From Moorella humiferrea (GTDB lineage Bacteria > Bacillota > DSM-521 > Neomoorellales > Neomoorellaceae), in assembly GCF_039233145.1 (NCBI RefSeq), contig NZ_CP136419.1, positions 2,578,001 through 2,642,000 on the forward strand: a stretch of DNA of 64,000 bases. Direction: 5' to 3'. The notes beneath the pieces are model-generated. The model saw only the letters and a list, made by a program, of their open reading frames with translations. It did no database searches and had not been told where the DNA came from. Each line of letters starts with the position of its first letter. The stretch's first letter is position 1. A program made the translations under genes and the position numbers. Positions 53,365-56,857 of the stretch are shown here, one piece after another.

Positions 53365-54015
53365 TTGCCTGATTTTAATCTCGATTTTAAAAACATTAAA
53401 GCCCGCATTCGGGAACACAAAAGCGGGCTTCTGGATGCCCATCGATACAATCATGCCGCCGTTTTTTTGCCCTTGCTGGATATAACAGGCGGCTCTCTGT
53501 CGCTCCTTTTTGAAGTGCGTTCCCATCGCCTGACAATCCAACCCGGCGAAGTTTGTTTCCCCGGAGGACACATTAAAAGGGACGAGAAGAGCCCGCAGGA
53601 AGCAGCCGTCAGGGAGACCTGCGAAGAACTGGGACTAACTCCAGATGCACTGGAAATCTGGGGCGGCCTCGATATGCTGGTTACCCCTTCCCAGTTGGTC
53701 ATCCATCCTTTTGTCGGTCTGCTATACGGCATTGAAAACATTAAACCAAATCCCCAGGAAGTAGAGGAAGTCTTTACTGTTCCCCTGGAACGCCTCTTGA
53801 CCCTCAACCCCCTTTATCACAAAGTAAAAATCAAGATAGAGCCGCCGGAAGATTTCCCCTTTGATAAAATTCCCCGCGGACGCAACTACCCCTGGCGGCA
53901 GGCAACCTGGCCGGAACTTTTCTATGAATTTGAAGGCCGGATAATTTGGGGGATGACGGCAAGGTTGCTGCATCATTTTCTGGAAATTGTCAGGGAAGCA
54001 ATGACCGGCAGGTAA
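53365..54015 (+). CDS. Nudix hydrolase, CoA pyrophosphatase-like (YeaB/NudL group)
   Basis: A 216-residue hydrolase of nucleoside diphosphate derivatives. The Nudix box is complete: GHIKRDEKSPQEAAVRETCE followed by ELGL. The preceding RLTIQPGEVCFPGGH resembles the LSxHxGQxxFPGG motif of CoA diphosphatases. The start is TTG after GAGGTGACTTCGTT. It ends 24 nt before a strong bidirectional terminator. Substrate assignment is tentative. Confidence 0.82.
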   Translation: MPDFNLDFKNIKARIREHKSGLLDAHRYNHAAVFLPLLDITGGSLSLLFEVRSHRLTIQPGEVCFPGGHIKRDEKSPQEAAVRETCEELGLTPDALEIWGGLDMLVTPSQLVIHPFVGLLYGIENIKPNPQEVEEVFTVPLERLLTLNPLYHKVKIKIEPPEDFPFDKIPRGRNYPWRQATWPELFYEFEGRIIWGMTARLLHHFLEIVREAMTGR

Positions 54016-54038
54016 TGTCCATGCCGTACGCACTATTA

Positions 54039-54059
54039 AAGGGCGCCGCCGGCGCCCTT
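54039..54059. terminator. Bidirectional terminator between the Nudix gene and the micropeptide cluster
   Basis: A perfect 9-bp stem AAGGGCGCC with a 3-nt loop (GCC). It is flanked by A-rich sequence on the left and a short T-containing stretch on the right, so it can serve both converging transcripts; the minus side gives the better T run. Confidence 0.75.
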
Positions 54060-54071
54060 CAGTTTATACCG

Positions 54072-54158
54072 TTAGTTGCCGAAGAAAAGGAGGATAAGGA
54101 TCAGGAACAGGATTAAGGCCCAACCACTGTTGAATCCCGGGCCGAAGAAGCCGCCCAT
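54072..54158 (-). CDS. Hydrophobic micropeptide 1 (28 residues, YjcZ/SscA-like)
   Basis: ATG preceded by AAAGGAGGCATTACC. The peptide is a short polar head (MGGFFGPGFNSG) and a hydrophobic helix WALILFLILILLFFGN. It resembles the small YjcZ/SscA-type membrane peptides linked to spores in bacilli (family resemblance, not proven). Last of four consecutive tiny genes. Confidence 0.75.
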   Translation of the reverse strand: MGGFFGPGFNSGWALILFLILILLFFGN

Positions 54159-54205
54159 GGTAATGCCTCCTTTCCCTTAAAGTTTAAAGGAAGCTAACGA
54201 CGGGT

Positions 54206-54289
54206 TTAGTTGCCGAAGAAGAGCAGGATAAGGATCAAAAACAGGATTAAAGCCCAACCATTATTGAATCCCGGCCCGAAGCCGCCCAT
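54206..54289 (-). CDS. Hydrophobic micropeptide 2 (27 residues)
   Basis: MGGFGPGFNNG followed by exactly the same tail as micropeptide 1 (WALILFLILILLFFGN). Its own ribosome site GGAGGGATATAAAA precedes the ATG. The DNA of the shared part differs at several third positions, so the peptide sequence is what has been kept after duplication. Confidence 0.78.
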   Translation of the reverse strand: MGGFGPGFNNGWALILFLILILLFFGN

Positions 54290-54322
54290 TTTTATATCCC
54301 TCCTTTGGCGAAAGCGCTAAAA

Positions 54323-54400
54323 TTAATTACCAAAGAACAGTAGGATGAGTATCAAGAAAAGGATAAAAGCCCAGTTGTTGTTAAAAATACCGTCTGCCAT
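54323..54400 (-). CDS. Hydrophobic micropeptide 3 (25 residues)
   Basis: MADGIFNNN then WAFILFLILILLFFGN, one residue different from the tail of peptides 1 and 2. The ATG follows GGGAGGATAAAAA. A single membrane helix with an outward or inward NN/GN polar end. Confidence 0.78.
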   Translation of the reverse strand: MADGIFNNNWAFILFLILILLFFGN

Positions 54401-54490
54401 TTTTTATCCTCCCTTCTCCAGTTAATCCAGGTTTTACTTTAATCTATTCCCCAGTTAGCTTAAGGGTTACATTTTTAGGGGCACCATTGA

Positions 54491-54598
54491 TTAAAAAAAG
54501 ACAAAGAGGGCTATCAGGAGAAAGATAAAAAGAAAGATAAGACCGCCATCGGCCAGGATATTCCTACCCGAGACCTCCGGGCCTTGTACTTCCGCCAT
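54491..54598 (-). CDS. Hydrophobic micropeptide 4 (35 residues)
   Basis: The first gene of the row by transcription. MAEVQGPEVSGRNILADG is polar, followed by GLIFLFIFLLIALFVFF. The ATG follows GAGGGGGTGACATC. It lacks the conserved tail of the other three and may be a distant relative or a separate membrane peptide. Upstream, CATAGAATA (near 54680) resembles a sigma-K -10 box, which is only suggestive. Confidence 0.65.
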   Translation of the reverse strand: MAEVQGPEVSGRNILADGGLIFLFIFLLIALFVFF

Positions 54599-54710
54599 GA
54601 TGTCACCCCCTCAAGAAAACCTACCCGTTCCGCCTGCCATTTTAATGATGGTCACGACATATGGAATCTCCTTTGTATTCTATGTTCGCAAAGATTATAG
54701 AGTTACCCAT

Positions 54711-54735
54711 AAAAAAAGCCCCCAATATAGGGGGC
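54711..54735 (-). terminator. Terminator of the YchF-like gene
   Basis: On minus GCCCCC, loop TATATT, GGGGGC, then TTTTTTT; 11 nt past the stop codon. Confidence 0.93.
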
Positions 54736-54746
54736 AAAATTTTCCA

Positions 54747-55820
54747 CTACACGTTAAAGCGAAAGTTTATAATGTCGCCATCCTGGACGATGTAATCCTT
54801 GCCTTCCAGGCGAACAAGGCCTTTTTCCCTGGCTTTATTCATATCCCCTGCATCTTTAAGGTCGTCAAAACCGACTACTTCGGCCCGGATGAAGCCCCGC
54901 TCAATATCGCTGTGGATCTTACCAGCGGCTGCCCGAGCATTGGTCCCCTCCCTGATGGTCCAGGCACGTACTTCATCTTCCCCGGCCGTCAGAAAGGATA
55001 TCAGGCCCAAGCGACGGTAAATGGCTCGGGCCAGACGTTCTATACCAGGCTCGGCGATGCCCATTTCTCGCAGAAATTCCTGCCTGTCCGCCGGTTCCAG
55101 GCGGGCTATCTCCCCTTCCAGTGCGGCGCACAGGGTTAAAACGGGTATCCCTCGGACGCCGGCATATTCTTCTACTTCTTTCCGGCCTTGATAATCACCC
55201 GCCTTTAATTGCTCTTCGTCTATATTGGCCACTATCAGCATGGGTTTGGTCGTTAAAAATCCCATATGGCGCAGGGCCTGCCATTCGTCGGGCGTCAGGC
55301 CGGCCTCTAATAAGGGTTTTTCGGTCTCCAGGGCTTCCTGACATTTCCTTAAAGCGTTCTGTTCGGCCAGCAGTTCCCCTTTGACCTTTTTACCGGCGGC
55401 AATCCGTTCCAGCCTGGTTTCCACCAGCTGCAAATCGGCCAGAAGAAGCTCGGCATTTATCATCTCCAGGTCGCGCGCCGGATTGAGACTACCTTCCACG
55501 TGAAGCACATCATCCCGCCGGAAGGCCCTGACTACGTGGATTAAAGCGTCTACCTCACGCACGGCGGCAAGGAAGGCCGCCCCGCTTCCCCGCGTCAATC
55601 CGGGAACGTCGATGACTTCCAGGGAAGCCGGGGTTATTTTGCGCGGATGGTACAGGACCGCCAAAAAATCAAGGCGGGGATCGGGGATGGGGGCCGTCCT
55701 GACATTGGTTTTCGTACGACCGGCAAAGGTGGAGGTTTCCGCCTCGCCCTGGGTCAAGAGATTAAACAAGGTAGTTTTCCCAACAAGGGGTAGACCGATT
55801 ATACCGCATCTTAAGGCCAA
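54747..55820 (-). CDS. Divergent YchF-like (DUF933/TGS) P-loop NTPase
   Basis: 357 residues. The N-terminal G domain has P-loop GLPLVGKTTLF (usual YchF: GLPNVGKST), G3-like DVPGLTRGSG and an altered G4 (ANIDEE) in place of NxxE; a coiled helical part (about 130-200) and the C-terminal TGS/DUF933 domain (GFIRAEVVGFDDL, then YIVQDGDIINFRFNV) are clear. Canonical YchF is an ATPase binding ribosomes; the missing NFPFCTIEPN-type segment after the P-loop indicates a separate subgroup with unknown function. TTG start after GAGGTGA. Confidence 0.85.
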   Translation of the reverse strand: MALRCGIIGLPLVGKTTLFNLLTQGEAETSTFAGRTKTNVRTAPIPDPRLDFLAVLYHPRKITPASLEVIDVPGLTRGSGAAFLAAVREVDALIHVVRAFRRDDVLHVEGSLNPARDLEMINAELLLADLQLVETRLERIAAGKKVKGELLAEQNALRKCQEALETEKPLLEAGLTPDEWQALRHMGFLTTKPMLIVANIDEEQLKAGDYQGRKEVEEYAGVRGIPVLTLCAALEGEIARLEPADRQEFLREMGIAEPGIERLARAIYRRLGLISFLTAGEDEVRAWTIREGTNARAAAGKIHSDIERGFIRAEVVGFDDLKDAGDMNKAREKGLVRLEGKDYIVQDGDIINFRFNV

Positions 55821-56206: not shown

Positions 56207-56857
56207 TTACTGGCTGTGGGCCCGGCGTTCCAGATAACGTTCCAGCTTGCGCTTTACGCGCTGCAAAGCATTGTCGATGGATTTTACGTGACGTTTCAAA
56301 TCAACGGCAATTTCCTGGTAGGATTTTCCCTCGAGATAGGACATTAATACCTTCCATTCCAGGGAGCTCAGTATTTCGCCCATTTTTTCTTCGATGTCAA
56401 CGAATTCTTCCTGGCTGATAATTAACTCTTCCGGGTCGGTAATTTTCGAGCCCGAAATAATGTCCAGCAGGGTGCGGTCCGAATCTTCGTCATAGATAGG
56501 TTTGTTAAGGGATACATAGGAGTTCAGGGGGATGTGCTTCTGTCTCGTAGCCGTCTTGATGGCGGTAATAATCTGGCGTGTAATACACAGTTCGGCGAAC
56601 GCCCGGAAGGAAGACAGTTTGTCGCCGCGAAAATCGCGAATGGCTTTGTAAAGGCCGATCATGCCCTCCTGTACAATATCTTCGCGATCGGCACCGACGA
56701 GGAAATAGGAACGCGCCTTTGCCCGGACAAAATTGCGGTATTTGTTTATTAAATATTCCTGGGCTACTTCATCACCTTCCTGGGCCAGGTAAACAATATC
56801 TTCATCCCCTAGAACTTCATACGGTTGCCACGGTTCCTGCTGCACATTGACACTCAT
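56207..56857 (-). CDS. sigH: RNA polymerase sigma-H factor
   Basis: Sigma factor for transition state and early sporulation genes in Firmicutes, 216 residues. Region 2: EYLINKYRNFVRAKARSYFL and DIVQEGMIGLYKAIRDFRGD; region 4: LEGKSYQEIAVDLKRHVKSI. Presence suggests a sporulating relative. ATG start. Own promoter at 56934-56962. Confidence 0.96.
   Translation of the reverse strand: MSVNVQQEPWQPYEVLGDEDIVYLAQEGDEVAQEYLINKYRNFVRAKARSYFLVGADREDIVQEGMIGLYKAIRDFRGDKLSSFRAFAELCITRQIITAIKTATRQKHIPLNSYVSLNKPIYDEDSDRTLLDIISGSKITDPEELIISQEEFVDIEEKMGEILSSLEWKVLMSYLEGKSYQEIAVDLKRHVKSIDNALQRVKRKLERYLERRAHSQ

Follow-up and report, generated by a model that had tools for sequence, protein, structure and literature searches.

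A conserved cluster of hydrophobic micropeptide genes with sigma-K-type promoters in Moorella humiferrea and the widespread FLILILL family, a candidate group of spore-envelope peptides

Four short open reading frames (ORFs) lie in tandem on the minus strand of a 64,000-nt stretch of the Moorella humiferrea genome (NZ_CP136419.1, positions 2,578,001 to 2,642,000; hereafter, the window). Moorella is a heat-loving spore former, and this genome comprises 2.67 Mb in a single contig. Transcribed in the order 54598 to 54072, the ORFs contain 35, 25, 27, and 28 codons, and each carries a G-rich Shine-Dalgarno site no more than 18 nt from its ATG. A preliminary description, made from the sequence without a strand being given, had reported four tandem ORFs of 25-35 codons with good ribosome sites, and all four were recovered at the same positions. 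The cluster is flanked by ychF upstream and by a convergent Nudix gene beyond the last ORF (both names were read from translations). The features of the region are as follows.

54718..54735, minus strand: terminator-like hairpin of the upstream ychF, GCCCCCTATATTGGGGGC followed by TTTTTTT, which sets ychF apart from the cluster
54676..54706, minus strand: P1, predicted sigma-K-type promoter GTAACTCTATAATCTTTGCGAACATAGAATA, of the form GTAAC-N17-CATANNNTA
54491..54598, minus strand: first ORF, 35 aa, MAEVQGPEVSGRNILADGGLIFLFIFLLIALFVFF; Shine-Dalgarno site GAGGGGGTG
54440..54470, minus strand: P2, predicted sigma-K-type promoter GTAACCCTTAAGCTAACTGGGGAATAGATTA, conserved in 8 of 8 Moorella species
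54323..54400, minus strand: second ORF, 25 aa, MADGIFNNNWAFILFLILILLFFGN, FLILILL family; Shine-Dalgarno site GGGAGG
54206..54289, minus strand: third ORF, 27 aa, MGGFGPGFNNGWALILFLILILLFFGN, FLILILL family; Shine-Dalgarno site AAAGGAGGG
54072..54158, minus strand: fourth ORF, 28 aa, MGGFFGPGFNSGWALILFLILILLFFGN, FLILILL family; Shine-Dalgarno site AAAGGAGG
54040..54059, no strand assigned: GC-rich inverted repeat in the gap between the cluster and the Nudix gene

A similar terminator-like element was aligned in most relatives at the position of the ychF hairpin. The inverted repeat at 54040..54059, which was read from the sequence and did not appear in the terminator-scan output, is possibly a terminator shared by the cluster and the Nudix gene. 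Upstream of ychF, a SigH-like gene (read from the sequence) occupies positions 56207-56857 of the window on the minus strand, with no operon shared with the cluster as far as could be seen.

The second to fourth ORFs encode peptides that end in FFGN and lack lysine and arginine entirely. The preliminary description had stated that three of the ORFs share the same C-terminal end or a single-residue variant of it, and this was borne out: WALILFLILILLFFGN closes two of them and WAFILFLILILLFFGN the third. These three are members of the FLILILL family. The ORF at 54491-54598 (MAEVQ...) encodes a different type of peptide with a hydrophobic C-terminal tail, sharing the cluster with the FLILILL genes.

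The reading frames, starts, and stops were intact in eight Moorella species including this genome, and the frameshifts or lost start and stop codons that would have counted against the genes were thus looked for and not encountered. Changes at third codon positions relative to the window copy were dominant (135/236, 44/90, and 84/145 in three ORF groups). Across all pairs, pN/pS was 0.13 for the first ORF, 0.17 for the second, and 0.21 for the third and fourth together, and the third and fourth ORFs, the two WAL copies, differed by seven synonymous changes and one nonsynonymous change. The earlier proposal that silent differences indicate selection on the peptide was therefore upheld. Because the frames were intact in eight species, third-position changes were in excess, and pN/pS was low, a chance origin was dismissed; at the level of sequence, the four ORFs are confirmed as real, conserved micropeptide genes under selection.

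The FLILILL family is defined by the core F-[ILVA]-[ILV]-F-L-[IV]-L-I-L-L, to which three of the four cluster ORFs conform. A similarity search with one 27-aa peptide detected relatives in 10 of 10 other members of the genus and in most of the taxonomic family. When a family profile was applied to 398 genomes representing an even sampling of the phylum, matches were found in 105 genomes, the largest number in a single genome being 12. Scanning GTDB contigs with a degenerate DNA pattern yielded at least 120 loci; those listed include Desulfotomaculum-type bacteria, Pelotomaculum, Halanaerobiales, Thermosediminibacteraceae, Fermentithermobacillaceae, and Limnochordales, as well as Moorella sulfitireducens, which has the same kind of cluster, and the matches listed contain 163 distinct short peptides located behind ribosome sites. 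The search pattern itself partly dictates the core of this pattern-scan set; F17, L18, L20, I21, L22, and L23 were already invariant in the set obtained by similarity only (A1). None of 590 pattern matches from an alignment-based locus search was confirmed by tblastn because the query was so short. When the four peptides, seven relatives, and 50 diverse members were searched against Pfam and NCBIfam, only chance-level matches were returned; tblastn against plasmids returned nothing with a YjcZ-like query of approximate sequence or with a family-like consensus; and a literature search on the motif string found no relevant paper. Judged by these sequence comparisons, FLILILL is a widespread family without a model in Pfam or NCBIfam, the two general libraries searched.

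Several related peptides were observed beyond the cluster. A fourth FLILILL-family member, a paralogue of 45 aa with a longer head, MVEEGGNVFGPKKSPQESNLGFNFPGGNVAFILFLILILLVFGDN, lies elsewhere in the genome (C1:1299283-1299420; L257:1784-1921). In another genus of the taxonomic family, the position of the first ORF is filled by a divergent hydrophobic-tail peptide, MGTPARSLYTDGLLWFLLLYLLILIFIVF (L009:1756-1845 and L262:2628-2717, minus strand), which has its own sigma-K-type motif at -52. In several genomes, a sibling peptide type with NPF/NPY/NAF-x-LFLILILL in mid-sequence and a longer charged tail occurs near FLILILL genes (L088:6642-6884, L095:6236-6433, L117:2531-2710, L121:4854-4976, L139:3790-3951, L164:5556-5765, and L020:1630-1824). 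A survey of 138 neighbor proteins, among which the YchF C-terminal domain was present, revealed no enriched function (murA-type, 4; Coat_F, 2) and no consistent link to coat genes.

Alignment of the Moorella loci revealed two conserved islands outside the ORFs, namely GTAAC-N17-CATANNNTA ahead of the first and second ORFs. We take this to be the form of a sigma-K promoter, with AC around -35 and CATANNNTA at -10. The spacing was 17 in both P1 and P2 in all eight species; the -10 element of P2 begins with A instead of C in the window, and the other seven species read CATANNNTA. P1 was the sole exact match in the whole 2.67-Mb genome, and when the A-for-C substitution of P2 was also accepted, the 64-kb window contained no such sites other than P1 and P2. 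The sigma-K regulon motif, with AC near -35, CATANNNTA at -10, and a spacing of 16-17, was thus found at both sites, with one mismatch in the P2 of the window. The two-block layout reported for Bacillus subtilis sigma-K promoters agrees with this form (PMC517825).

The test that matters is one that does not depend on Moorella. Within 110 nt of 109 nonredundant family leader genes, the strict motif AC-N16/17-CATANNNTA occurred in 34, compared with 4 of 522 control regions lying ahead of long ORFs at these loci and with 1 of 109 when the pattern was reversed (p = 4e-24); about two thirds of the leader genes carry no strict motif. Its position ranged from -51 to -86, and among all the letter permutations tested, CATANNNTA was the commonest. 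A sigma-E-type pattern had no match in 164 upstream regions; the sigma-G pattern was likewise absent from the upstream regions, where the sigma-A pattern showed no enrichment. A loose sigma-K pattern was not in excess genome-wide (46 matches versus 48 reversed), so the sigma-K assignment is based on where the motifs lie and on their conservation. The 150 nt upstream of the 45-aa paralogue contained no sigma-K-type motif. These comparisons identify P1 and P2, on sequence grounds, as sigma-K-type promoters, that is, promoters of the late mother-cell stage of sporulation. The sigK gene is present in the genome, and a sigma-K-type motif, ACCTATACGGCCGCGCTTCCATAAAATA, was observed approximately 60 nt upstream of the sigK match (C1:1656535-1656562, minus strand), a position that would fit autoregulation.

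SpoIVA was encoded in 103 of the 105 family-positive genomes, and the two SpoIVA-negative ones were incomplete (75% and 61%). Among 49 near-complete genomes without SpoIVA, none carried the family (p = 8e-8, uncorrected for phylogeny). The family is thus nearly restricted to SpoIVA-encoding genomes. Two metagenome-assembled genomes (MAGs) titled Actinobacteria and Deltaproteobacteria (L109 and L115) carry FLILILL peptides; because these MAGs also carry SpoIVA, their organism labels are probably wrong.

The preliminary description had compared the peptides with YjcZ/SscA-type spore peptides while leaving the exact family open. The sporulation link and an outward likeness to YjcZ were retained, but membership in the YjcZ family was not. 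YjcZ (PF09680, YjcZ_2) and FLILILL peptides are both tiny, multicopy, and found in spore formers, often with a Gly/Tyr-rich head and one hydrophobic core that ends near Gly; the YjcZ core, however, is LVLFILLVI, whereas that of the present family is of the FLILILL type. PF09680 had no match at E <= 0.1 in this genome, none over the cut-off in 61 genomes including relatives, and none at E <= 0.1 among 50 family members. Genuine YjcZ proteins were gathered from 295 genomes of the phylum of a Bacilli MAG, 30 of which carried YjcZ over the cut-off. In this Bacilli-containing sample, FLILILL gave weak matches without a convincing member (the five that were inspected resemble hydrophobic stretches arising by chance), and these weak matches came from genomes other than the YjcZ-positive ones. 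Comparison of the family with genuine YjcZ proteins by hhalign gave a probability of 23%, and the similarity did not exceed that of shuffled hydrophobic columns (p = 0.37). Homology by register, tempting by eye, was rejected on this basis, the two families being alike in appearance without detectable homology.

SscA (YhzE) is the small spore coat assembly protein A of B. subtilis. It resembles the FLILILL peptides as a tiny hydrophobic peptide tied to sporulation; no Pfam or NCBIfam model connects the two. SpoVM, a 26-aa mother-cell sporulation micropeptide at the forespore membrane, is a functional analog only: it forms a charged amphipathic helix under sigma-E control, whereas FLILILL cores are uniformly hydrophobic and the sigma-E-type pattern was absent from the 164 upstream regions. 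In B. subtilis, yjcZ has been placed in the sigma-K regulon (PMC517825). The FLILILL family most likely works like YjcZ.

An AlphaFold model of the 45-aa paralogue places a single helix, predicted with confidence, across the core (residues 27-43) and leaves the head poorly ordered. Among the matches listed, the family heads comprised 24% Gly and 18% aromatic residues, and the tails were short and rarely basic. From these properties and the preceding results, we propose, with a probability of roughly 0.72, that the cluster is a late-sporulation micropeptide operon whose products are small structural or assembly parts of the spore envelope, working like YjcZ-type peptides. Late mother-cell expression is inferred from the conserved promoter motifs, and a membrane or coat location and a structural role would follow the same proposal. 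When sigma-K is active in the mother cell, P1 would transcribe all four ORFs and P2 would supply extra transcripts of the last three, and the strong ribosome sites would allow the peptides to be made. The hydrophobic core may form a single helix, placed either in the membrane that surrounds the forespore or where membrane and coat meet. Contact with the coat during its assembly would then be made by the heads, which are rich in Gly and Phe and almost uncharged in the FLILILL peptides and acidic in the first peptide. The presence of several paralogues in one genome would provide a high dose. The peptides would be the counterpart in function of the sigma-K-controlled YjcZ-type peptides of Bacilli, without demonstrable membership in the YjcZ family.

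Binding to one membrane partner is known for many bacterial micropeptides. With this precedent, the products of the cluster could be late-sporulation regulators or accessory subunits of a single membrane protein, for example one involved in germination or coat maturation, and not structural parts; the strict L/I pattern of the core, which suggests specific packing, points in the same direction. However, no conserved neighbor gene was found as a possible partner, and up to 12 matches per genome fit a dose-demanding role better. We consider this role unlikely.

Far less probable is that the peptides belong to type I toxin systems, in which antisense RNAs silence small, hydrophobic membrane peptides. 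Such a function has been proposed, without confirmation, for a YhzE family of nine peptides in B. subtilis (PMC6562991). The FLILILL peptides share with the Gram-positive type I toxins (TxpA/BsrG and those of Clostridioides difficile) a small size and a single hydrophobic helix, and their genes occur in tandem copies. Gram-positive type I toxins have been described with charged C-termini (PMC6563280), whereas a C-tail with at least two K/R was present in only 9 of 159 family peptides among the matches listed, and no charged region of this kind follows the transmembrane segment in the second to fourth ORFs, which end in FFGN. A scan of both strands of 53900-54850 that covered sigma-70-type promoters only found none (1.3 expected) and thus no adjoining or overlapping antisense RNA gene with a sigma-A-type promoter. 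The 5' part of the transcript was not unusually structured (z = +1.25). These results, together with the sigma-K-type promoters and the SpoIVA association, disfavor the toxin interpretation.

The housekeeping genes adjoining the cluster could suggest vegetative membrane microproteins with no tie to sporulation, but the conserved sigma-K-type promoters, the failure to find a sigma-A-type promoter, and the absence of the family from near-complete genomes without SpoIVA render this highly improbable. That the ORFs, short as they are, remain untranslated in a region conserved as RNA or by chance has a negligible probability: pN/pS far below 1, silent divergence between the copies, ribosome sites, and frames intact in eight species argue against it, the region had no RNA-structure signal and only matches far below the threshold in Rfam, and the codon pattern rules out a nontranslated conserved RNA.

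A late-sporulation role in the spore envelope thus remains our preferred interpretation. Beyond a few model spore formers, little is known of the late mother-cell program, to which FLILILL adds a family that occurs in roughly a quarter of the sampled genomes of the phylum, is absent from Pfam and NCBIfam, and has a ready promoter signature. Trypsin-based proteomics is expected to miss the products of the second to fourth ORFs because they contain no K or R. The findings also bear on the nature of YhzE-type peptides, as toxins or as spore proteins. More tentatively, the FLILILL peptides might represent a spore-envelope component that is abundant, lineage-specific (Moorella, Desulfotomaculum-type bacteria, Halanaerobiales, and their relatives), and not described before. 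They would stand in for the YjcZ-type peptides of Bacilli and would have escaped notice through their very small size and, in many of them, the lack of trypsin sites; if so, they may add to the extreme heat resistance of Moorella spores.
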